Positions 27,001-59,572 of a DNA stretch of 64,000 nt are shown here, piece by piece. Origin of the DNA: a virus. The notes beneath the pieces are model-generated. The model did no database searches. It saw nothing but the letters and a program-made list of their open reading frames with translations, and had not been told where the DNA came from. The position numbers were made by a program, and so were the translations under genes. The stretch covers positions 27,667-91,666 of the IMG/VR virus record IMGVR_UViG_3300010885_027635. One strand, written 5' to 3'. The first letter of the stretch is position 1. Each line of letters begins with the position of its first letter.

Positions 27001-30000
27001 TCCAGGACCATCATAGTTTCATAACTGGTAAATTTCAAATGCAAATATGATATAGATTGATTGCTTGCACTAGTCACACTAAATGCATCACCATCACGTT
27101 GTACAATCAAATCTCTAGTAGGAAGAGTGGTGCGATTTTGATCAAGTAAAAGTTGTTCTGGGCTGGTGCTGATAATAGTATCAACTACTGATCCAGCACG
27201 GAATGCCTTGAGTGTAGTAGCACACGGATTTAAATTGATAATAGTGCCAGGCGTCCATCCTTGTTGACTGTAGTATAAAAACTCTGTGGCCATTTGTGTC
27301 CAGTCAAGTTTGTAACCATTTTCATAATCATTGAAAATTAACCCTTGCTTTTCAAGATAAGCACCGTAGCTTAAAATAAAATCAACTACAACAGTATTAT
27401 TAACAAAAGTATATCCATAAGGTATTTGTACTACTGTATCACTATATTGTGCTGGTACTCGAACTGCGGTACCTCCACCGCTGACTGTTTTTAACAATCC
27501 GTTGCTGGCACTAGCAAAAATATTAAAATATGGCGTGGCATTGTTGTATCCGTATACTGCATAACCGCCTGAGACTATTTCAATGATTAACGCACTATAA
27601 ACAATTTCGTTGAATGGCTGATTTTTATACAACAACAATTGATAGTTGTTGTCCGGCAATGTCAAACTACTGTTGGTACTGTTTGGACTTTGACGTTCTA
27701 ATATCACGTCAAGGTATTGTTTGTCTGTGAAACTGGCCATACGATAGCACAAACGCACATCAAGATTGGCCAAATCGTTAGTCAACGCAGTTGTACTGTT
27801 ACGTCCTAATTGACGATTGTAGTCAACGATCCAGTCAATGTAACTGGCCTTGCTGACGCCGTTGCCATATACTTCTATGCCATTGGCATCTAGCCTATAA
27901 CGCCCATTGTAAAGATATTGTTCCAGTTCAAAATCATAACGATATAAATCTCTATCAGCAAACAGGGCAAAGAATTCTGCTGGCTTGGTCAATATCAACA
28001 AACGCATGACCGCAAATGGATAACTGGAACTCATCCACCAACTTGCTTCTACTGGGCCGCCGTCGCCGGCACTCCAACTCTTTTGGAATGCGTTAGAATT
28101 ATAACTGCCAACTACACTATAAAGTGGTGCCAATAACTCGCCTTCTGTGCCAACAGGAATAAGTTTTGTTAGGCCTGGTCTTACATAGTTGGGTTTAATG
28201 TAAGGTGCAATTGGGTCTGCTACCAAGCCAGCCTCTAAGTCGTCCCACAATACCAAGTTATCACTGGTATATGGGGCAGGACCATAGCGTTCTTCCCACC
28301 AGACTGGTTTTTCAGTCAGGCCCAACATCTCCCAGGGAGTTAAATTGGGAGTTAATGTGTCGTAGAAATAACGATAGATGCCACGCCAGGCACCCAATAA
28401 CGGGTCTTCGTTAATTTTGTTGCCAGCGGTGCTGTAATTGTAAGTGAATGGATTATTGGCAATGTAGTCTTGACGTTTATAATCCAGTTTGTTCCATCCA
28501 ACCCAGGTCAAAAAACTTTCACTCAAGATATTATTGATATTTGTTTGAGTGTAATCAGTCTTGCGGAAGAACCCAGGAATTACTTCTTCCGCAGTTAGCG
28601 GTACTGGGTTGCCGTCGTTTTTTAAATTGTCATAGATACGTTTTTCAAATTCTAATAATATTTGATCACGTATGTCAATGCGGCCATTGTTGTATTGATC
28701 TGTAGTGGTGAAAGCAATAGTGATACTGCCATCATGCCCTTGCACAACCAATGCAGGATTCACATAGTCAATGTCATAGAATATTCTTGGCAAATACTTT
28801 GGATACAGTCCTAGTTTAGTAGGAGTATTAGGCACAAAATTGCCGGCGGTATTGCCATACTCATTGATGGTTACAATATCCCCAACATTCAGAGGAACTG
28901 TTATAGTAAGTCTGGGACTATCTGTGGCCACTACATATTCTACATCACGAGTCAATAAAGTTGTGACTGGCTGATTATTAATAGTCCTTGTCAGATATAC
29001 CAGTAATCCAAGATAGTTAGAACTGGTAAAATCATAGGTCTGTACTGTGTTGAATATTGGAGTGCTAATTGGGGTAATAGTGTTGACTGTTTGTGTGTAC
29101 ACCGACCCTGTAGGCAACATGTCGCTCCAATAAAATGGATTAGTATCTGTACGTCCATTGGTAATAGTGGCTATAGCTGAATCTAATATTTCAGCCACAG
29201 TCATGTCTCCATAATCATTACGTACCACAGTGTCTATCAACAAAGATTTAAACTTGATGTACTCTCGGCTGTTGTATTCTAATGCACCAAAAATATCATA
29301 TTCTTTGCTACGCATGAAATAGCCGGCCAAGGTCAACGGACTACTTTGTTGTAGTATTTGTTGACCAAAAGGAACAATGTTGCCCAAGTCTCTGGTGTTG
29401 TTTGGGCCAATAATTGGACCTACAAGTCCAAGCAAATTTTCGCCAACAGTTTCGTAATGTGTGCGAGCTGTGCCTAAAGTAAAGATACTATTGTTGGTAT
29501 TGAGTGGATTATTTTCTAAATTAACAGGAATTTGATAAAATGCTGTTGCACTGACCTGATCACTTAATACCGCTACTTCAATTACATCACCTGGCAACAC
29601 ATAAGTTTTGCTCATGGTAATAGTTGTAGTATCACTAGTGGTGGTGTAGGTATATCGACCTGGGTCTTGGAACTGGCTGTTTACATATAATTGTACAGCT
29701 GGTATTACGTTGTTGGTATTAACCGCTACATCTAATAGCAAAGGACTACCATCGTAAGTAAATTGAAATTGTTGTCTTTGGATACTGCGTGTAGCAGCCG
29801 GTTGCCAGCCAATTTCACTACGATAATCTAGTCTGTTAGAATACTGTCTTACAAATCCACTGCTGACATCAACAGTCTGACCTGTTGATCCTAACACATA
29901 ACCAAAGGTGTCTGTATAAAGATTATTGTCAAAAACAATATCACCAATGTTATCCAGGCTCAAATATCTTAAAGGAAATCCTAGCACAGCGTCTGGACTG

Positions 30001-47544: not shown

Positions 47545-49304
47545 TCCATATAAAAAACTTAACCGTAAAGAATTTTATGAGTGTGGGCAATAGCACACAA
47601 GCTATTGACTTTGATCGCAAGGACTTGACATTAGTGTTAGGTGAGAACTTGGATCTAGGCGGTGATGGCAGTCGTAACGGCACAGGTAAAACCACAATTA
47701 TCAATGCTCTCAGCTACAGCCTATACGGACAAGCACTCAGCAATATCCGCAAGGATAACCTTGTAAACAAAACCAACAATAAAAACATGTTGGTCAGTTT
47801 GGATTTCAGTGTGGGTGGCAAAGATTATCGGATTGAACGTGGACGTAAACCCAACGTGCTAAGATTCTTTGTAAACAATCAAGAACAAGTGGTCACAGAT
47901 GAAGCACAAGGTGATTCAAGAGAAACGCAAGATGCTATTGAGCAGACACTAGGCCTAAGTCATGACATGTTCAAACATATCCTGGCACTTAACACCTACA
48001 CAGAACCTTTCCTAAGTCTCAAAGCAAATGATCAACGCACTATCATTGAGCAGTTGTTAGGCATTACCATGTTGAGTGAACGTGCTGACAAGATCAAAGA
48101 ACACAATAGATCCACCAAAGAAGGCATTACACAAGAAGAATTTAGAATTCGGGCTGTTCAAGAAGCCAACAAGCGTATCGAAGAACAGATTGAATCATTG
48201 AAGCGTAGACAAACATTATGGGTCACCAAACATGGCGAAGATATCGCGGAACTTGAGAAAGCCCTCAAGGCGTTACAAAATATACAGATTGAAACAGAGA
48301 TCCAAGCTCACACGGATCACAAGGCATGGGATCAAAAGCGGAAGGATATCAATGAACTATCTGGTCAGATCTCGCGGATCAAATTGGATATTGGTCGGGA
48401 AGAAAAGTTGGCGGCCAAACTATCAAAAGAAATTGAAACGCTTGAAAATCATGAATGTCATACGTGCGGACAGGCCTTCCACGACAGTAAGCACGAACAA
48501 GTTTTGGAAAGCAAGCAGACGGAGTTGGCTACAGCTCGACAGAGTAGCTCGGAATACAGCACCCTGTTATCAGAGTTGGAGACTGCCCACACAGCCTTGG
48601 GCGTGTTAGGTAAACCACCTGTAATGTTTTATGACAAGGAATCAGATGCTATCCAGCATCAAGCTACTTTGAGTAATTTAGAACAACAGATCGCCACCAA
48701 ACACGCAGAAACAGATCCGTATGCAGAACAAATTACGGAAATGCAACAACAGGCCCTTCAGGAGATAACATATGACGCACTTAATGAACTTACTCGCTTA
48801 CAAGAGCATCAAGACTTCTTGCTCAAACTACTCACCAGCAAAGACAGCTTTATCCGTAAAAAGATTATTGAACAAAATCTTAGCTATCTAAATGCTCGAC
48901 TAACGCACTACCTAGATCGTGTAGGCTTGCCACACACAGTAGTGTTCCAAAATGACTTAACTGTCAGCATCGAAGAGCTAGGCCGTGAGCTGGACTTTGA
49001 TAACTTGAGTCGTGGTGAACGTAATAGACTAATCTTAAGTATGAGCTGGGCATTCAGAGATGTGTTTGAAAGCCTATACCAACCTATCAATCTGTTGTTT
49101 ATAGACGAAATGATCGACAACGGGTTGGATACGCAAGGTGTTGAAAATGCTCTAGCCTTGTTAAAACACATGAGCCGCGAACGACACAAATCAATTTGGC
49201 TAGTAAGCCACAGAGACGAGCTGGCTGGACGAGTTGAGAACATTCTTAAAGTAGTCAAAGAAGGTGGATTCACAAGTTACAACACGGATGTAGAAATTGC
49301 GTAG
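47541..49304 (+). CDS. 46: Recombination nuclease subunit gp46 (SbcC/Rad50-like)
   Basis: A 587-residue SMC-type ATPase (T4 gp46: 560). Walker A GSRNGTGKTT is at 43-52, a central coiled coil carries the zinc hook CHTCGQ at about 306-311, followed by the ABC signature region (LSRGERNRL) and Walker B LLFIDEMIDNGLD at about 517-529. With gp47 it forms the end-processing complex for recombination. Its last 8 nt overlap the radical SAM gene that follows. Confidence 0.9.
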   Translation: MIHIKNLTVKNFMSVGNSTQAIDFDRKDLTLVLGENLDLGGDGSRNGTGKTTIINALSYSLYGQALSNIRKDNLVNKTNNKNMLVSLDFSVGGKDYRIERGRKPNVLRFFVNNQEQVVTDEAQGDSRETQDAIEQTLGLSHDMFKHILALNTYTEPFLSLKANDQRTIIEQLLGITMLSERADKIKEHNRSTKEGITQEEFRIRAVQEANKRIEEQIESLKRRQTLWVTKHGEDIAELEKALKALQNIQIETEIQAHTDHKAWDQKRKDINELSGQISRIKLDIGREEKLAAKLSKEIETLENHECHTCGQAFHDSKHEQVLESKQTELATARQSSSEYSTLLSELETAHTALGVLGKPPVMFYDKESDAIQHQATLSNLEQQIATKHAETDPYAEQITEMQQQALQEITYDALNELTRLQEHQDFLLKLLTSKDSFIRKKIIEQNLSYLNARLTHYLDRVGLPHTVVFQNDLTVSIEELGRELDFDNLSRGERNRLILSMSWAFRDVFESLYQPINLLFIDEMIDNGLDTQGVENALALLKHMSRERHKSIWLVSHRDELAGRVENILKVVKEGGFTSYNTDVEIA

Positions 49305-50166
49305 GGTTCGAGTTCTCCATGTTGAGCCTACTGACGTTTGTCAGGCAGCATGTCCCATGTGTGCTAGAGAGACCGATCCGAACTTTAATAAAAGTTCAAA
49401 GCATCATCTACGTGTGGAACATATTCAACAACATTTTACCGATCGAGCAATAGCACGATTAGACAAAATGTTTATGTGTGGCAACTATGGCGATCCTGCT
49501 GCAGGCTACTATACCATGGACATCTACAACTACTTTAGAAAAATCAATCCCAACATTGTGTTAGGCATGAATACCAATGGTGCTGTTCAAAGTACATTTT
49601 TTTGGCATGCCTTGGGCAAGTTATTCAATCAGCCAGAAGATTATTGTGTGTTTAGTATTGACGGTTTAGAGGATACCAATCAGATATATCGTAAAAATGT
49701 AAACTGGGCCAAGCTAATGAGCAACGCTCAAGCATACATTGCCGCTGGCGGAAATGCTCAATGGGACATGCTGGTGTACAAACACAACCAACATCAAGTA
49801 GATGAGTGCGAGCAGTTGGCCCGTGACATGGGATTCAAGTGGTTCCGTGCTAAAGTTAGCAAACGTGGGTTTACTGATCGATTGGAATTTCCTATAGGAT
49901 GGCAACAACCAGCAATCAAACAAGGGCCTATTAAATGTCATGCACTTGATGAAAAAAGTATGTACATTGATGCTCAAGGTCGATTAAGTCCGTGTTGCTG
50001 GATTGGAGCTACTCAACGAGACTTTGTTAAAGATGATTTAAAAACTGTAAAATTGACTTGGAAAACAGATACACCCAATTTGGTGTGCGCAAGTACTTGT
50101 TCTACAAACAAAAATAAAACGGTGTTCCAGGATCAATGGCAACGAGAGGTTGAGTTGAATGTTTAA
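49297..50166 (+). CDS. Radical SAM/SPASM-like protein
   Basis: A 289-residue radical SAM enzyme with core motif CQAACPMC (Cys15, Cys19, Cys22) and, in place of GGEPL, the motif CGNYGDP. The C-terminal region has several cysteines (CHALDE, CCWIG, CASTC) fitting a SPASM-type auxiliary cluster. The only possible start is TTG at 49297, two codons after a stop, inside the last codons of gp46; there is no Shine-Dalgarno, so translation must be coupled to gp46. It is a paralogue of the next gene's first domain (shared SIDGLE, YRKNV and AGG-x-AQW motifs). The substrate is unknown. Confidence 0.8.
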   Translation: MRRVRVLHVEPTDVCQAACPMCARETDPNFNKSSKHHLRVEHIQQHFTDRAIARLDKMFMCGNYGDPAAGYYTMDIYNYFRKINPNIVLGMNTNGAVQSTFFWHALGKLFNQPEDYCVFSIDGLEDTNQIYRKNVNWAKLMSNAQAYIAAGGNAQWDMLVYKHNQHQVDECEQLARDMGFKWFRAKVSKRGFTDRLEFPIGWQQPAIKQGPIKCHALDEKSMYIDAQGRLSPCCWIGATQRDFVKDDLKTVKLTWKTDTPNLVCASTCSTNKNKTVFQDQWQREVELNV

Positions 50167-51853
50167 TTATACAGTGATTGACGAGTATCAATTAGAAATT
50201 ACTAGTTATTGCAATGCTGCTTGCCCGCAGTGCCCTCGTAACGATCACGGTATTGGTATCAATAAAAGAATGCCGTTGTGTCATCTCGATCGTCATGTTA
50301 TAGATCAAACCTTTACACCAGAACTATGTAATAGATTACGACAAGTATTTTTCTGTGGTAGCTATGGTGATCCAATTATGCATCCAGACTTCCTGGACAT
50401 ACTTCGAGACTTTAGATTAAAAAATCCAAAGCTATGGTTATACTTTCATACCAACGGCGGAGTGCATGATCCAGAGTATTGGGCAGAGATTGCACATATA
50501 ATGGCAGGCTATGGACAAATTGATTTTGGCATCGATGGGCTTGAAAACACTTTGCATTTGTATCGAAAAAATGTAAAATACAGCAAGGTTATTGAAAATG
50601 CCAAAGCGTTTATTAACGCAGGTGGACGAGCACAGTGGAATTTTATAGTGTTTGGTCATAACGAAGCCGAAGTTGAAAAAGTAAAACAATTGGGCAATGA
50701 GCTAGGGTTTTTTAATGTATTAATTAGAAAAACTGGAAGATTTTTAAATCATAGGACGTTAGAAGAAATACCGCTGTGGCCGGTTAACAACGGATTTGCA
50801 ATTGAGCCCCCAACAAATCCAGAATATCGCAATCAAAGTATTATGTTTTTGCCCGACTTAAAAAAACAGTATGGCAATATTAAAGAATACTTTAATACTA
50901 CAAAGATCAACTGTGATGCACTGTTAGGAAAAAAGGTAGTTGTTACAGCCGAAGGATTGGTGTTGCCTTGTAATTTTTTTACACATAATTTGTACGATCG
51001 AAGATTCTATGAAGAAGGTGTATTACCAGAATCCAACGAGCTTAGTAAAGTTGACGGAAAAAATCAAGTCAGAACATTTTTAGAATCGTATAATTTAGAT
51101 AGTTTTAATATTAACCTACACAGTCTTGAAGAAATATTTAACAACCCTATGTGGGGAGATTTAGTTGAAAGTTGGAATAAAACATTGGATAACGGACGCT
51201 TGTTTGAGTGTTCGATGACTTGTGGATCAAAATTCACCAAGGTCTGGGATCAAGGAGGAAATAAAAAAATTATGAAATATATGATTACTGGCGGCAACCG
51301 CGGGCTAGGTGCAAAATTTGTTGATCACTTTAACGGAGATAGTTATAGTCGTAGCAATGGTTACGACATTACTAAAGATATAGATAAACTTGCTATAAAA
51401 AGTTTAGACTATGATGTGTTTATAAACAATGCTTTTGATGGGCCATTTCAAGAAGAGTGGGCCAATTTTGGACAGGTTAAGTTGTTATTTGCTGTGGCCG
51501 AACTGTGGTCCAAAGAAAACAAAACAGGATATATTATTAATATTGGCAGTTCAGGAAGTGAAAATACAGTTGCTCCTATTCCTAGCTTTGAAACTTATCG
51601 CGTTAGTAAAACAGCATTAAAAGAACATAGTCGTCAATGGACTCGAGCATTCAAAGAAAATCGAGTGCTATTTAAAACCAGTTTGTTAACTCTGGATCGT
51701 ATAGATACAGAATTGTCTCGTAGTCGTGCAAGCTGGACTGGTAATGGACTTAATACAACAGATATCTGTTCTTACATTGAGCTAATTACTAACACTCAAT
51801 CAAATACATGCATTGAAGAAATTGTATCGTGGGTGAATTTTGAACATAACTAA
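50159..51853 (+). CDS. Radical SAM - short-chain dehydrogenase fusion protein
   Basis: A 564-residue protein made of two enzymes. Residues 1 to about 370 are a radical SAM domain (CNAACPQC; CGSYGDP; GIDGLENT; later C-terminal cysteines CDALLG, CNFF, CSMTCG), paralogous to the gene upstream. Residues 372-564 are a classical short-chain dehydrogenase: MITGGNRGLGAKF binds the nicotinamide cofactor, INNAFDG matches the NNAG motif, INIGSSGS holds the catalytic Ser and YRVSK the Tyr and Lys. An in-frame ATG at 51272, 13 nt after AGGAGG, may also give the dehydrogenase alone. It overlaps the upstream gene by 8 nt. Confidence 0.85.
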   Translation: MFNYTVIDEYQLEITSYCNAACPQCPRNDHGIGINKRMPLCHLDRHVIDQTFTPELCNRLRQVFFCGSYGDPIMHPDFLDILRDFRLKNPKLWLYFHTNGGVHDPEYWAEIAHIMAGYGQIDFGIDGLENTLHLYRKNVKYSKVIENAKAFINAGGRAQWNFIVFGHNEAEVEKVKQLGNELGFFNVLIRKTGRFLNHRTLEEIPLWPVNNGFAIEPPTNPEYRNQSIMFLPDLKKQYGNIKEYFNTTKINCDALLGKKVVVTAEGLVLPCNFFTHNLYDRRFYEEGVLPESNELSKVDGKNQVRTFLESYNLDSFNINLHSLEEIFNNPMWGDLVESWNKTLDNGRLFECSMTCGSKFTKVWDQGGNKKIMKYMITGGNRGLGAKFVDHFNGDSYSRSNGYDITKDIDKLAIKSLDYDVFINNAFDGPFQEEWANFGQVKLLFAVAELWSKENKTGYIINIGSSGSENTVAPIPSFETYRVSKTALKEHSRQWTRAFKENRVLFKTSLLTLDRIDTELSRSRASWTGNGLNTTDICSYIELITNTQSNTCIEEIVSWVNFEHN

Positions 51854-53047: not shown

Positions 53048-53075
53048 CTTAAATAGTTATATGGGTATATTTAAA
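53048..53075. promoter_or_regulatory. Divergent TAAATA boxes
   Basis: The 34-nt gap between divergent genes holds CTTAAATA on the plus strand (53048-53055, 19 nt before the ATG at 53075) and TTTAAATA on the minus strand (53075-53068, 27 nt before the ATG at 53040). Both differ from the strict late consensus, so they are weak candidates. Confidence 0.3.
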
Positions 53076-53755
53076 TGAAAATACAGTTCAATCATAATTT
53101 TGGTCACCAGGAGCAGGGCGAGTGCTTTCACTTTGGATGTGAGTTAGTTGATGTAGCTGACACCGAGTTTGATGCTGCGTTGGATTTTGGGTTTTTGCTT
53201 ACTATTGATCGCGGGCAAATGCGATGGTATCAGAGTCGTAGCACCAGAGTACGCACAACGGATACTGACTACGAGTTGTTGAACAACGCAAAGTTAATTG
53301 CAGATCCAACACCAAGTCAGTTAGTAGAAATGGATCATATCTATACTGCATATTGTTATTATAAAAAATTTAAAAAATATTTTGAAGTTGGTTTTCGACT
53401 TACACAAGATCGAATCATGGCCTATTATCAAAACGATGCCTGGGTAGCATGGGCCAAACTCAGACACTACACACCTAAAGCCATTGAAACTTGTTTGTTT
53501 GTTTGGGATTACAGTCGACCAGCTACCAAGTTGGGCAACACTAGTCTACAGCACGAGATTGCGTGGGCCAAACAATCAGGCTATGAGTTTGTGTATCTTG
53601 GCCCAGGATATGAACGTAGCAGTGTATACAAATCAAACGTACAGGGATTTGAGTGGTGGGATGGAGCAGAGTGGACTGCTGATACAGATCGATACCGTTG
53701 GTTATGCCAACGAGACAGCAAACTTAAATCTGTCTCGGATCTTTACGATGTGTAA
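53075..53755 (+). CDS. GNAT/arginyltransferase-like protein
   Basis: A 226-residue protein. The C-terminal half (AWVAWAKLRHY, IETCLFVWDYSRP, LGNTSLQHEIAWAKQSGYEFVYLGPGYE, YKSNVQGFEWWDG) resembles the C-terminal GNAT fold of arginyl- or leucyl-tRNA-protein transferases (ATE/Bpt), in which LGxxSLxxEIxxAxxxG and YLGxxY are shared. The N-terminal cysteine motif of those enzymes is absent; only Cys17 and Cys22 are near the start. Function as an aminoacyl or acyl transferase is a reasonable guess. Its 3' end overlaps the convergent gene at 53724 by 32 nt. Confidence 0.5.
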   Translation: MKIQFNHNFGHQEQGECFHFGCELVDVADTEFDAALDFGFLLTIDRGQMRWYQSRSTRVRTTDTDYELLNNAKLIADPTPSQLVEMDHIYTAYCYYKKFKKYFEVGFRLTQDRIMAYYQNDAWVAWAKLRHYTPKAIETCLFVWDYSRPATKLGNTSLQHEIAWAKQSGYEFVYLGPGYERSSVYKSNVQGFEWWDGAEWTADTDRYRWLCQRDSKLKSVSDLYDV

Positions 53756-54230
53756 ACAAAGCTGTTAGATATTCTTCAGGCCAGGTATCATAAAAGCCCT
53801 TCTTGGCAACAAGTTGGGCTTTTTCATTTAGGTCACTCAGACTTTGCACCAGAGCCAAGGCATAGGTACCTTGATTCATACTAACACCATTGACAATTTC
53901 AGGATCGCCTGGATGATCCTCTAAAGCCAACAAGTTGTTATCCAATAGGTGCACAATGTTTGCAGCCCGTAGACTTTCGCTAAAATGCCGGTATTCCCAA
54001 TATGCAGGATCGTAAGCAAAGATAATAACACTCTTGTTTAATCCACTTTTGGAAATCTCCAGCAAGTCTACATAAGGATCTGTGCCTAACCTGACTTCAA
54101 AGTCTTTATCTAGTCTAGCTTTTCTAGCATACGGGCACGGAGCCCAGTTGCCCAGTGCAGGATGAGGAACTTCTACAAAGTCTACTATCCACTGCTCTAT
54201 TGCTTGTTTTACAGTTGTTAAGTCTAGCAT
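53724..54230 (-). CDS. Conserved hypothetical protein
   Basis: A 168-residue protein I cannot assign. The N-terminus IEQWIVDFVEVPHPALGNWAPCPYARKARL has a Pro/Trp/Cys pattern (W-x-P-C-P-[FY]-A) I recognise from conserved hypothetical proteins. The middle (VIIFAYDPAYWEYRHFSESL) is alpha/beta. There is no signal peptide or membrane segment. It follows the 62-codon tail ORF with a TGATG overlap, so it is transcribed and probably translated with the gp26 unit. Confidence 0.6.
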   Translation of the reverse strand: MLDLTTVKQAIEQWIVDFVEVPHPALGNWAPCPYARKARLDKDFEVRLGTDPYVDLLEISKSGLNKSVIIFAYDPAYWEYRHFSESLRAANIVHLLDNNLLALEDHPGDPEIVNGVSMNQGTYALALVQSLSDLNEKAQLVAKKGFYDTWPEEYLTALFTHRKDPRQI

Positions 54231-54418
54231 CAGAAGAAAGGCAATCCAGATTTTTTAGTAGTCTCAAGATTTTCTTTTACGATGTCATCGATAATGCCGC
54301 GTTCGGATCGACTCATCTGCATGGCTTCATCGTATGTTACCCCGCCTCGCATGTACCAACACAATTTTAAAACATCAAGCCGAATGTTGCGTGTTTCTTT
54401 CTCCATGGCTTCGACCAT
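54230..54418 (-). CDS. Small tail-assembly ORF, probably read by -1 frameshift from gp26
   Basis: 62 residues from the ATG at 54418 (KETRNIRLDVLKLCWYMRGG, ENLETTKKSGLPFF). Its reading frame is open upstream, through the end of gp26, to the poly-T slip site at 54469-54460. A -1 shift there would join residues 1-276 of gp26 to 14 extra residues and then this ORF, a product of about 352 residues. This is the layout of the G and GT tail assembly chaperones of other phages. No Shine-Dalgarno is seen before the ATG, which favours frameshifting over separate initiation. Similar short sequences follow gp26 in related phages as I recall them. Confidence 0.65.
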   Translation of the reverse strand: MVEAMEKETRNIRLDVLKLCWYMRGGVTYDEAMQMSRSERGIIDDIVKENLETTKKSGLPFF

Positions 54419-54444
54419 AAGGCCGATGCCTTCGGAGTCTAGGA

Positions 54445-55287
54445 CTAGGAGGCGGTTTCGAAAAAATTTGACATGTCAAGAGTAAACTCTTGTTTATACT
54501 CATGCGAGCATTCAGGACAAGTAAGTTGTAGTGGGGGAATATCTGTTTGTGATCTCAGTTCAATTACTTTGTCACGTACTGTTTCAAACACGTTCTTTGG
54601 TGCATTGACCAAAAACTCTTCAATTTGCTTGCCGTCGGTTACCATAGCATCTGAAGTTTTAACTGCGGCAACCGAAGCACTGATACTGCGAATAGTCAAG
54701 TTGGTAATGCGTCTAAATGCATCACCTAGCTGTTTCATTTTTTCTTCTTCGCCGGTGTCGCTGTTGTTGACAATTTGTATAATTTTTGAATCTTCGTACT
54801 GTACACGGCTGATATCGTTGATTTGACGATAGGTTAGTGGCGTAAAGAACATGGTTAAATCACCAATTGACAACGGTTTATCGTAGTCGGGCATTTTTAT
54901 GTTGTCTAACACTGTACGCAGATCAACTGTGACCTGATGAGTGTGGCCACAACTAGGACAAGTAGACGAAATTTCCATTTCGTGTCCGTAACTGGCTAGT
55001 CGAATAGCACACAACAATGCACTAAGATCCACGGCTGTTACTGCCCACGGATCTGCAATAGCTGGCACACAACTGCCAATAACTCCAGCGGTACTTGCAC
55101 CGTTAAACAAGGCGTCTGGCGTTCGATTGGTAATTTCGTCCACAGCAGTCATAGGAAATATTGGAATTTCACCATTGGGCGGCAGTGCTACTGTGCCTGC
55201 AGGATAAAATTTCCCGCCACTGGGCAACCGCAAATGAATTGCTGGTTGTCTAAAGTATTTGCTCAAAGGATTGGTAGTTTGGGTCAT
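54445..55287 (-). CDS. 26: Baseplate hub/assembly protein gp26
   Basis: A 280-residue protein of the T4 gp26 (T4_baseplate) type; T4 gp26 has 208 residues. The N-terminus LSKYFRQPAIHLRLPSGGKFYPAG and MTAVDEITNRTPDALFNG are typical. Two zinc-binding pairs are visible: CPSCGHTHQ in the middle and CPECSHEYKQ near the end. It acts in hub and tail assembly, probably as the chaperone on the tape measure. Near the 3' end the sequence A-AAT-TTT-TTC offers two overlapping -1 slip heptamers before the stop. Confidence 0.8.
   Translation of the reverse strand: MTQTTNPLSKYFRQPAIHLRLPSGGKFYPAGTVALPPNGEIPIFPMTAVDEITNRTPDALFNGASTAGVIGSCVPAIADPWAVTAVDLSALLCAIRLASYGHEMEISSTCPSCGHTHQVTVDLRTVLDNIKMPDYDKPLSIGDLTMFFTPLTYRQINDISRVQYEDSKIIQIVNNSDTGEEEKMKQLGDAFRRITNLTIRSISASVAAVKTSDAMVTDGKQIEEFLVNAPKNVFETVRDKVIELRSQTDIPPLQLTCPECSHEYKQEFTLDMSNFFETAS
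54460..54469 (-). promoter_or_regulatory. Predicted -1 frameshift site
   Basis: On the minus strand the sequence AAATTTTTTC contains A-AAT-TTT (54469-54463) and T-TTT-TTC (54466-54460), both of the X-XXY-YYZ type in the gp26 frame. A 5-bp hairpin (AAGGC-ATCG-GCCTT) follows about 25 nt downstream, a modest possible stimulator. Confidence 0.6.
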
Positions 55288-55333: not shown

Positions 55334-57523
55334 ATGGCCAATGAAAATGATGAAATAATTGACGGAATGAGCAAATTGCGAGATTCCTTTCAAGGTATTT
55401 CTCGCCAAGCCAAAGATGACGCACAAGGCTTAGATGCTTTTTTAAAAGCCACTGGGCAAGGTGCCGCTGCAGTTACCAAAAGTCTAGGAAGCTGGGCCGC
55501 TGGTGCCAGCAACGGAAAAACCAGTTTTCAAAGTTTGGAAAATGTAGTTGACATAGCCAGCGGTGCGTTGCAAGCTATGGCCAAGACTGTTCCCTACGCA
55601 GGACAAGCTGCAGCTGCGGCTATCGAAGCCACAGGCGAAGCTACCAAATTCTTACTTAAACAAATGGATCAATCCATCAAGGCCTATAATGATGTGGCCA
55701 AAGTTGGTGCCGCCACTGCTGATGGCATCAAAGGAATGCAACGACAATTTATTGCGTCGGGCATGCCGTTGACCAGTTTTACCAAAATAGTAGGCCAAAA
55801 CTCTGTGGCTTTAGCACGTTGGCGTGGCGTCACTGGCGAAGGTGCCGAAGACTTTAGTGACATAGTAGGAAAGTTTACCAAACAAGGTGATGACAGCTTG
55901 CGTATGTTGGGTATGAATGCAGAGCAAATAGGTGAAACCACTGCAGCCTATTTGTCACAGCAAACACGTCTTGGAGAAGCCCAAGGCAAATCCAATCAGC
56001 AACTAGCTGATGGTACCAGAAAGTATGCCATAGAACTAGATCAACTGCAAAAAGTCACAGGCCTGAATCGCAGTGAAATACAAAAGCAACAAGACAAGGC
56101 ATTAAGTGAAAGTCGTTTCAGAGCCAACATACAAGACATGACCGACAAAGGTCAAGGCGAAACTGCACAGAAATTTTTAAGATTATCAACAGCCATGGGC
56201 GATGGTGAACTAGGAAAAGGCATCAGAGATATATTAGGGGGTGCCAATACCAAGGCCGCCAAGGCCCTGATAGCATCCAGTGGTGGTGCTGTTAATGACA
56301 TTATTGATCGAATGAAAAGCGGTCAAATTGATGAAAAGCAAGCACAGGTTGAATTGCAAGCAGCCACTAGAAAAAACATGGACAGCCAACGACAGTACGC
56401 TAAAACAGCAGACAAAAATACTAGTCCGTTTGTTGATCAAGCCGAACTGTCTGATTTTAATAATCGAGATCTTAATAAGGCCTGGGACAAGGCCAAAACA
56501 GCTACAGCAGCTCAAATAGACGGCCAAGACCAATTGACCAAAGACACGGTCAAAGCACAAAAAAATATTGAACGTATGAATATAGAAATCCAAGAGCTGG
56601 GATTTACGTTCATGGACAAAGCAGCACCGGTTGTGAAAAATGTAGCCAAATCCATGGCCGACATGTTCAAATGGGTCAATAAACAGCTAGGTAAAAAAGA
56701 CGACGAGCGGGTTGATCGTGCATTGGTAGCATCTGGGTCAACTGGTACCGGCATGGACATGGGTGGCGGCGAAATCATGGCCGCTCAAGCCGGTGGTAGT
56801 GATGATCAGAAAAAAACACTGGCAGAAAAAATTATACAAGCTGAGTCAGGCGGAAAAAACATAGCCAATCAAAGTGGTGAAGGCGGCAAAGCTACAAGTT
56901 CGGCATTTGGTCTGGCACAGTTTACCAAAGGTACGTTTGAAGGGCTGGCCGGCAAAGCTGGCAAAGAAAATCCTCTGTACGGCAAAACCTGGGATGATTA
57001 TAAATCAGATACTGGTGTACAAAAAGAAGCATTAAATCAGCTAATGGATACTAATCGTCAGTATCTGGAAAAACAAAAGGTAAGCACCTCTGATGCAGCC
57101 ATTTATCTGGCACACTTCTTGGGCCCCAATGGTGCTGTAAAAGTTCTAAGCCAACCAGACTCGGCACCACTAGCTAGCGTAATAAGCCCATCGCAAATGG
57201 AAGCAAACCCTATGCTTCAAAAAATGTCTACAGTAGCAGACATTAAAGAATGGGCAGACAAAAAAATGGGCGGAGGCGGATATGCCAGTGCAGCCGCTGG
57301 TGCTATCCTAAGTGGCCCTATGAGTGGCTATCAACCCAACTCATCCATGGAAGGTATTGATGTCAAACCGTTGACACCAGAAAATTTAAGCAATGCAATG
57401 TCTGGTCAAGCTGGCAACGACAATGAGCTGTACGGGCTACAATTAACACAGCTTGACGCAATGATATCTACTGCTCGTGAGCAGTTATCCTACAAAGAAA
57501 AATTATTAAACTATCGGACTTGA
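55334..57523 (+). CDS. Tape-measure protein with transglycosylase-like domain
   Basis: A 729-residue protein. The first 480 residues are Ala/Gln/Lys-rich helices with a hydrophobic stretch (IEATGEATKFLL) and resemble tape-measure proteins, which set tail length inside the tube. Residues about 495-620 form a lysozyme-like transglycosylase module: EKIIQAESGGK with the catalytic Glu504, then SSAFGLAQFT and LAHFLGPNGA. It is paralogous to the next gene over the helical part (RMLGMNAEQIGET, KYAIELDQLQKVTG, ALSESRFRAN) but not over the hydrolase. The C-terminus ends in a coiled segment. No Shine-Dalgarno is seen. Confidence 0.75.
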   Translation: MANENDEIIDGMSKLRDSFQGISRQAKDDAQGLDAFLKATGQGAAAVTKSLGSWAAGASNGKTSFQSLENVVDIASGALQAMAKTVPYAGQAAAAAIEATGEATKFLLKQMDQSIKAYNDVAKVGAATADGIKGMQRQFIASGMPLTSFTKIVGQNSVALARWRGVTGEGAEDFSDIVGKFTKQGDDSLRMLGMNAEQIGETTAAYLSQQTRLGEAQGKSNQQLADGTRKYAIELDQLQKVTGLNRSEIQKQQDKALSESRFRANIQDMTDKGQGETAQKFLRLSTAMGDGELGKGIRDILGGANTKAAKALIASSGGAVNDIIDRMKSGQIDEKQAQVELQAATRKNMDSQRQYAKTADKNTSPFVDQAELSDFNNRDLNKAWDKAKTATAAQIDGQDQLTKDTVKAQKNIERMNIEIQELGFTFMDKAAPVVKNVAKSMADMFKWVNKQLGKKDDERVDRALVASGSTGTGMDMGGGEIMAAQAGGSDDQKKTLAEKIIQAESGGKNIANQSGEGGKATSSAFGLAQFTKGTFEGLAGKAGKENPLYGKTWDDYKSDTGVQKEALNQLMDTNRQYLEKQKVSTSDAAIYLAHFLGPNGAVKVLSQPDSAPLASVISPSQMEANPMLQKMSTVADIKEWADKKMGGGGYASAAAGAILSGPMSGYQPNSSMEGIDVKPLTPENLSNAMSGQAGNDNELYGLQLTQLDAMISTAREQLSYKEKLLNYRT

Positions 57524-57526
57524 TAA

Positions 57527-59572
57527 ATGGCAACTGATAACGAACTACAACAACAAATGGACGAATTGCGTCAAGCTGTACAAGGGCTTGCCTCAGCCAG
57601 CCAAGACGCTGAAAAAGGCCTAGAGGCCTTTGGCAAAGCCACATGGAAAGGCGTCAAGAGTATTGGCCCAGGTCTTGGCAGTCTGGCCAAAACTGTTGGC
57701 GAAGGTGATACCAGCTTCAAGTCCATGAACAAGGTAGTAGACATTGCAGCCAATGCACTAGGTGGCATGGCCAAAGCCATACCGTTTGCTGGTGATGCAC
57801 TGTCGGCTACACTCAAAGCAACTGCCGAAGCAGCCAAGTTCTTGCTGGATCAAATGGATCAAGCAACCAAGTCGTTCAACAGCATGGCGGAAGTGGGTGC
57901 ATTGGGTGCCGATGGCATGCAAGGTGTGTTGGATCAGTCCAACGCAACAGGATTAGCATTAACATCGTGGACCAAGCTGGTACAAACCAATTCAGTAGCC
58001 CTGGCCAGAATGTCGGGCATTGCCGGCGATGGTGCCAAGGTATTTTCTGAAGCAGTTGGCAAATTAACACAAGGTAACGATGACAGTTTGCGTATGTTGG
58101 GTATGAATGCTGACCAGATTGGTGAAACAGTTGGAGCCTTTGCAAGCCAGCAAACCAGACTGGGTCGTAGTCAAAGCATGACAGCAGATCAATTGGCACT
58201 GGGTGCCAAAGAATATGCCATGGAGCTGGACCAATTGCAAAAAGTCACAGGCATGAGCCGAGACGCCATACAAAAACAACAAGATTCTGCCCTAAGCGAA
58301 AGCCGTTTCCGAGCCAACTACGAAGACTTGCTGTCACAAGGCAAAGAAAAAGAAGCCAAAGCATTAATGGCCCTGCAGACCAGCATGAGCAGTTACAGCA
58401 AAGAGCTAGGACAAGGCACAAGGGATTTAGTGTCAGGAGCAGCCAACACCGAAGCAGCCAAGCAGTTGATGAATCAAACCAATGGTGCCGCACAAGACAT
58501 TATTGCTCGTGTCAAATCTGGAGAGATTGATCAAGATCAGGCCGAGCGAGAATTGCAAGCGGCCATGAAGAACAATAAAGAAACCATGCTTCAACATGCC
58601 AAGGTAGTTGACGGCAATAGCGAAGCATATGGCAACGTTGCTGGCTCTATGGATTTTATCAATAGAGATCTAGAAAAAAGTGCAGATAAAGCTAAAACCA
58701 CTAGAGAAGCACAACTGTCTGCACAAGATAAACTGACCAAAGACACCATTGAAGCACAAAAACAAATTGAACGCATGGGCATGGAAGTTCAAAAAATGAC
58801 CATCAAAGCATTGCCATACGCAGCTGCAGCAGTAGAAAAAGTAAGTGGTGCGTTAGCAGGTCTCACAAAATTTATTAACGCAATGATTGGCGGAGAAGAT
58901 ACAGGTGCTGCCGCGGTTGAGCCGGGTTCAACTGGTACTGGTATGGACATGGGTGGTTCAGAAATTATGGCCGCAGCAGGAACCACAGCCAGCCAAAAAG
59001 ATCTAGCCAAAATGGGTCTCAAGATCAAAGAAGGCGACGTGCAAGCATCAGGTGCACAAATCAGCACACAACTGATAGAAATGGCCAAAAAAGTACAGGC
59101 CACAGTTCCAGGTTTTGCCTACTTTAGTGGCTTCAACGACAAGTTCCATCAAGAAAAATCGCCCAGTAGCAGTCACACAACTGGCCGTGCCATGGACTTT
59201 GCCTTAGCGTCACCACCTAGTCCAGAAGAAGGTGAAAAAATTGTGGGCATGCTTAAAAACATGGGTGCAAGTCTGGCCATTGATGAATATAACAATCCCA
59301 GTAGCAAAGCCACAGCTGGACACATACATGCTCAAGTTTCTGCCGCTTCCGGTGCAGTGTTAAGCGGTCCTAGTGGTGGATACTCACCGGGCCTTACCAT
59401 GCACGGTACAGAAGCTATTGTGCCACTTGACACACCCGAAAGTTCTGCTATGAATTTGGGCGGCGGCAATACCGAAATGATGACCATGCAGTTGGCCAAA
59501 CTAGAAGAGCTGGCATCAATTTTCAAAAGTCAGCTGTCGGTAGATCAAAAATTATTACAGTACTCTAGCTAG
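57527..59572 (+). CDS. Tape-measure paralogue with M15 peptidase-like domain
   Basis: 681 residues, three bases after the previous gene. The helical N-terminal 450 residues match that gene closely, so it arose by duplication. The C-terminal part differs: residues about 500-610 carry an M15-type D-Ala-D-Ala peptidase signature, SSSHTTGRAMDF with His550 and Asp557, and GHIHAQV with His599 and His601, the usual zinc ligands. It would cut peptide cross-links, complementing the glycan cutter upstream. The end (TMHGTEAIVPLD) is a motif common at the ends of tape-measure proteins. Confidence 0.75.
   Translation: MATDNELQQQMDELRQAVQGLASASQDAEKGLEAFGKATWKGVKSIGPGLGSLAKTVGEGDTSFKSMNKVVDIAANALGGMAKAIPFAGDALSATLKATAEAAKFLLDQMDQATKSFNSMAEVGALGADGMQGVLDQSNATGLALTSWTKLVQTNSVALARMSGIAGDGAKVFSEAVGKLTQGNDDSLRMLGMNADQIGETVGAFASQQTRLGRSQSMTADQLALGAKEYAMELDQLQKVTGMSRDAIQKQQDSALSESRFRANYEDLLSQGKEKEAKALMALQTSMSSYSKELGQGTRDLVSGAANTEAAKQLMNQTNGAAQDIIARVKSGEIDQDQAERELQAAMKNNKETMLQHAKVVDGNSEAYGNVAGSMDFINRDLEKSADKAKTTREAQLSAQDKLTKDTIEAQKQIERMGMEVQKMTIKALPYAAAAVEKVSGALAGLTKFINAMIGGEDTGAAAVEPGSTGTGMDMGGSEIMAAAGTTASQKDLAKMGLKIKEGDVQASGAQISTQLIEMAKKVQATVPGFAYFSGFNDKFHQEKSPSSSHTTGRAMDFALASPPSPEEGEKIVGMLKNMGASLAIDEYNNPSSKATAGHIHAQVSAASGAVLSGPSGGYSPGLTMHGTEAIVPLDTPESSAMNLGGGNTEMMTMQLAKLEELASIFKSQLSVDQKLLQYSS

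Follow-up and report, generated by a model that had tools for sequence, protein, structure and literature searches.

The lambda tail assembly chaperones G and GT are reportedly produced by a programmed -1 frameshift (Xu, Hendrix and Duda 2004). In T4, genes 26 and 51 are divergent. A study by Vladimirov, Gautam and Davidson (Virology 2022), as described in passages of PMC10885494 and PMC12846349 that cite it, determined which proteins are the chaperones of T4-like phages. It is quoted as reporting that some of these phages have a short gene together with a long gene that is a fusion (PMC10885494), and it is cited for slip signals of the poly-T type in their chaperone genes (PMC12846349). From what these passages report, the kind of system described here is already known. 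In the jumbo-phage records we examined, the parts of the gene are annotated separately and the frameshift is unannotated.

We analyzed 64,000 nucleotides of the genome of a T4-related phage (IMG/VR record IMGVR_UViG_3300010885_027635, positions 27,667 to 91,666), referred to here as the window. The features of the locus, in coordinates of the window, are as follows.

54445..55287, minus strand: gp26 homologue in the zero frame, putative short form of the tail assembly chaperone (280 aa, 30.9 kDa)
54460..54466, minus strand: slip site T_TTT_TTC, an X_XXY_YYZ heptamer in the gp26 frame
54463..54469, minus strand: second X_XXY_YYZ heptamer, A_AAT_TTT, in the gp26 frame, probably incidental
54445..54447, minus strand: zero-frame stop TAG, 4 codons past the slip site
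54230..54460, minus strand: -1 frame extension, the gp51 C-terminal-like domain of the predicted long form (76 codons after the slip, then TGA)
54416..54433, minus strand: GAAGG (54433-54429) with ATG 54418, not conserved; no other internal start is plausible for a 62-codon ORF
54401..54437, minus strand: predicted stem-loop, starting 22 nt downstream of the slip site
53724..54230, minus strand: 168-aa ORF (phrog_28122); its ATG shares bases with the stop of the -1 frame (TGATG)
55334..59572, plus strand: two paralogous virion structural proteins of 729 and 681 aa (phrog_14121), divergent from gp26; tape-measure candidates

A first-pass annotation made from the letters alone had proposed a programmed -1 frameshift in a gp26 tail chaperone at this place. 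The identity of the gene was borne out by its match to PF12322 (T4_baseplate) at 2.6e-14, with 53.9 bits against a curated cut-off of 24.5 bits, and by a match to phrog_150 (baseplate hub) at 4.5e-15. The protein of the window carries two CxxC pairs, and a search of BFVD showed that its model is structurally similar to viral gp26 proteins. Among its other BFVD matches are larger proteins (450-690 aa) from phages that include phiEaH2 and Ralstonia RP12 and RSF1, and further jumbo phages may therefore share the chaperone fold.

The zero-frame 3' end of the gene reads TCA AAT TTT TTC GAA ACC GCC TCC TAG, with CAAATTTTTTC at 54470-54460 on the minus strand. On that strand no stop interrupts the -1 frame between 54475 and a TGA at 54232-54230, and the 62-codon ORF lies within it, as had been claimed. 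The fusion, previously put at about 352 residues, was computed at exactly 352 residues and 39.3 kDa; its predicted junction peptide in the window is QEFTLDMSNFFR and the zero-frame end is QEFTLDMSNFFETAS. With 30 copies of TTTTTTC in the window and 19 expected, the heptamer alone is not significant. Its conservation exceeds chance.

This conservation was assessed in 36 distinct loci, comprising the window, 21 IMG/VR relatives and 14 named phages (Atu_ph07, GAP32, 121Q, Vibrio 2.275.O, Phosso, BF, CBB, LG08, P-SSM2, S-PM2, phiM12, HTVC008M, Aeh1 and KVP40). The slip site and the open -1 frame were kept throughout the alignment. An in-frame xxT TTT TTY, which conforms to the canonical X_XXY_YYZ pattern for -1 frameshifting, was present in 36/36 loci; phiM12 and HTVC008M have T_TTT_TTT instead of T_TTT_TTC. 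The codon before TTT TTY always ends in T, and across the 36 loci it encodes seven amino acids (N, D, S, H, T, R and Y). Based on each gene's own codon use, the naive probability of such a conserved slip site is approximately 1e-37, a value that is an indication only because the calculation assumes an independence that related sequences do not have. In none of the 36 loci is the -1 frame interrupted before the end of the conserved domain, as a -1 frameshift calls for, and no homologue examined has a -1 frame stop between the slip site and the small ORF. The zero-frame stop lies 0-11 codons past the slip site in every one of the 36 loci. In Serratia phage BF (L044 3786-4043) it comes 11 codons past, the latest position among the loci. 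Scanning viral contigs yielded 37 relatives, and an in-frame T_TTT_TTC is present in all 36 that reach the end of the gene. The first-pass annotation had named two overlapping heptamers. Both are in the gp26 frame of the window, but only T_TTT_TTC is conserved; most loci have ACT, AGT, GAT, CAT or CGT before TTT TTC, and A_AAT_TTT was rejected as a working slip site.

A short hairpin had also been noted after the slip site, and one is present at 54437-54401, where the stem folds better than shuffled sequences (z -2.5). Among six close relatives, 4 of its 12 pairs have changes on both sides, which is modest covariation. When the 60 nt that follow the slip site are folded in all 36 loci, the mean z is -1.17, somewhat better than the -0.27 of control segments taken from those genes. 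The structure in this region varies, and a search of the wider group gave no stem that its members have in common. We took 5-9 nt downstream of the slip site as the position of a stimulatory structure. Because the hairpin is 22 nt from the heptamer, which is too far downstream, it is doubtful as a typical stimulator. With this spacing, and no common fold in the wider group, the hairpin was not established as a classical stimulator.

The -1 extension is under coding selection. Its pN/pS is 0.27; in five close relatives the ratio is 0.35 from the slip site to ATG 54418 and 0.25 beyond, and the value of 0.35 has two sources because part of that stretch is also read in the zero frame. The -1 domain has a conserved FFRxRLL..WYMRGG.. 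motif, and its FFRxRLL part, which is encoded past the slip site but ahead of any start codon, is kept in 22 aligned sequences. The domain is predicted to be helical (pLDDT 84). Fold and sequence searches of the PDB for a solved relative gave nothing convincing, and no solved chaperone structure was matched.

Several comparisons connect this domain to T4 gp51. The S-PM2 record already labels its small ORF gp51, and phrog_634 (baseplate hub assembly catalyst) is matched both by the -1 ORFs of S-PM2, P-SSM2 and phiM12 and by T4 gp51. With hhalign, the frameshift products of seven phages aligned end to end with T4-type gp51 (E 1.4e-20), and the products of the window clade aligned with those of the same seven phages through the C-terminal domain (E 1.1e-21). 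The direct alignment of the window clade with gp51 was weak (probability 65%), so the link runs through the other phages. Comparison of the window clade with the single T4 gp51 was uninformative, giving a spurious N-terminal alignment, and worked only via intermediate phages. These data show that the -1 domain is homologous to the C-terminal part of T4 gp51, via the cyanophage and KVP40-type products. The findings at this locus support the view that T4 gp26 and gp51 are short and long tail assembly chaperones. As a separate observation, the large gene after gp51 in S-PM2 (L069 1857-4001) has an ADP-ribosyltransferase-like N-terminal region (PF01129, 4e-06).

The -1 domain could instead be encoded by an independent conventional gene. 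Translation would then begin at ATG 54418, driven either by a ribosome-binding site of that gene or by ribosomes that reinitiate once gp26 has ended. The small CDS is annotated on its own in the GenBank records of 121Q, GAP32 and others. The small ORF had been described as lacking a ribosome-binding site, which is true of the family but not clear-cut in the window, where GAAGG lies 10 nt upstream of ATG 54418 and its weak anti-SD duplex (-3.3 kcal/mol) is no worse than that at the gp26 start (-2.8). However, the start or the SD differs in three relatives (L003, L004 and L006), the starts in the -1 frame vary, and 5 of the 36 loci have no ATG, GTG or TTG in the first 30 codons; in several relatives a start is either missing or weakly preceded. 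The homologues share no start codon for the small ORF that has a ribosome-binding site. RxRLL is conserved nonetheless upstream of the start, and the invariant xxT TTT TTY would be left unexplained by a separate gene. With starts and ribosome-binding sites varying in this way among relatives, internal initiation was rejected as the main route, and we regard a separate gene as improbable.

Slightly less probable again is that transcriptional slippage on the T6 run, and not ribosomal slippage, gives the fusion. U runs can make polymerase slip, and most loci have T6 before C, with a longer run in two. Polymerase slipping would not, however, need the codon phase of the heptamer, which is conserved in all loci, and a T6 run is short for efficient transcriptional slippage. 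Homopolymer runs are prone to indel errors, and a mistake in sequencing or assembly could have split a single in-frame gene. This reading is refuted, and its likelihood negligible, because the same frame relation and a zero-frame stop recur across 36 distinct loci, which derive from many different assemblies and from independent isolates.

We consider it very likely that a -1 ribosomal frameshift on T_TTT_TTC yields a tail chaperone pair, consisting of the short gp26 and a minor long gp26-51. The conserved slip site, the open -1 frame and the homology to gp51 support this main reading of the first-pass annotation. By analogy with lambda G/GT, on which the occurrence of slippage, its efficiency and ratio, and the chaperone role are modeled, most ribosomes on gp26 would terminate at TAG 54447 to give the 280-residue short form. 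A minority would move back one base on T_TTT_TTC (54466-54460), with tRNA-Phe re-pairing from TTT/TTC onto TTT/TTT by tandem slippage. The slipped ribosomes would then read the -1 frame to 54230 and make the 352-residue fusion, in which gp26 would carry at its C terminus a helical domain, the counterpart of the one in T4 gp51. By the same analogy with lambda gpG and gpGT, the two forms, the short one abundant and the long one scarce, may recruit the tape measure protein and coat it while the tail is assembled. A frameshift product would be the correct one for the pair labeled 'baseplate hub' and 'hypothetical protein' in 121Q, GAP32, CBB, BF, Atu_ph07 and Phosso.

The genes on either side were also considered. 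The TGATG overlap indicates that the 168-aa ORF is probably translationally coupled to the -1 frame. The stop/start overlap recurs as TAATG in L003, L006 and L007, which, judged from the sequences, suggests that translation of this ORF is coupled to frameshifted ribosomes. On the other side, the 729- and 681-aa paralogues are homologous to GAP32_244 and 121Q_597; the GAP32 and 121Q homologues are 'virion structural protein' genes located between portal and gp26. The paralogues may be tape measure proteins. The claim that tape-measure genes lie next door is plausible as to identity, but none of the tape-measure models matched these two neighbors and they are on the opposite strand. The tandem copies (55334-57523 and 57527-59572, plus strand) differ in their C-terminal parts. 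The first has a weak, sub-threshold match to SLT transglycosylase/phage lysozyme, and part of the second looks, on visual inspection, like an M15-type peptidase, which Pfam did not confirm. Other nearby genes on the plus strand have features of their own. The gene at 53075-53755 has a marginal match to PF04377, an arginine-tRNA-protein transferase C-terminal domain that is unusual in a phage. At 49297-51853 there are two adjoining ORFs with CxxxCxxC-type motifs that look radical SAM-like by eye, the second seemingly fused to a short-chain dehydrogenase-like part.

We compared the number of PF12322 genes in 18 phages. Each of the 14 frameshift phages has one such gene. By contrast, T4 and three T4-type phages (Acinetobacter, Morganella and Aeromonas GomatiRiver_11) have two, 26 and 51, and an in-frame heptamer at the end of gp26 is absent in these four. 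The one-gene frameshift and the two-gene arrangement are thus mutually exclusive in this sample of 18 phages. The window's own record, which is incomplete at 91.7 kb, has a single PF12322 gene, and the T4-style two-gene arrangement was found neither there nor in the 14 frameshift phages. It seems fairly likely that the ancestor of the T4 supergroup made both tail chaperones from one gene by frameshifting on T_TTT_TTC, and that the T4-type Straboviridae (Tevenvirinae and the Acinetobacter and Morganella relatives) swapped this for the divergent pair 26 and 51. Such a swap would mean that recoding was exchanged for gene duplication within a family that still holds frameshifters (KVP40 and Aeh1). 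The split between one-gene frameshift and two-gene phages makes this evolutionary exchange testable.

As a comparison with the systems already described, the locus resembles lambda G/GT in having a short form and a -1 frameshifted long form in the tail region, with the heptamer just before the stop of the short form. It differs in the slip site, which is G_GGA_AAG in lambda versus T_TTT_TTC here, and in that the protein is a PF12322 gp26-type protein with CxxC pairs in a contractile-tail phage. The first-pass annotation had assigned the G/GT chaperone layout to the locus. The pairing of a short form with a -1 long form fits this, but the lambda-type position on the same strand directly upstream of the tape measure gene does not, the candidates here being divergent and upstream. 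The chaperone of Vandenendeviridae and Andersonviridae (phage Adele; PMC12846349) is similar in its conserved -1 frameshift, poly-T motif (GTTTTT) and open -1 frame, and it was found by the same comparative argument; it belongs to other phage families and uses another slip motif. Relative to T4, gp26 corresponds to the short form and the C-terminal part of gp51 to the -1 domain. T4 has two separate divergent genes without a slip site, whereas here there is one gene and a predicted frameshift.
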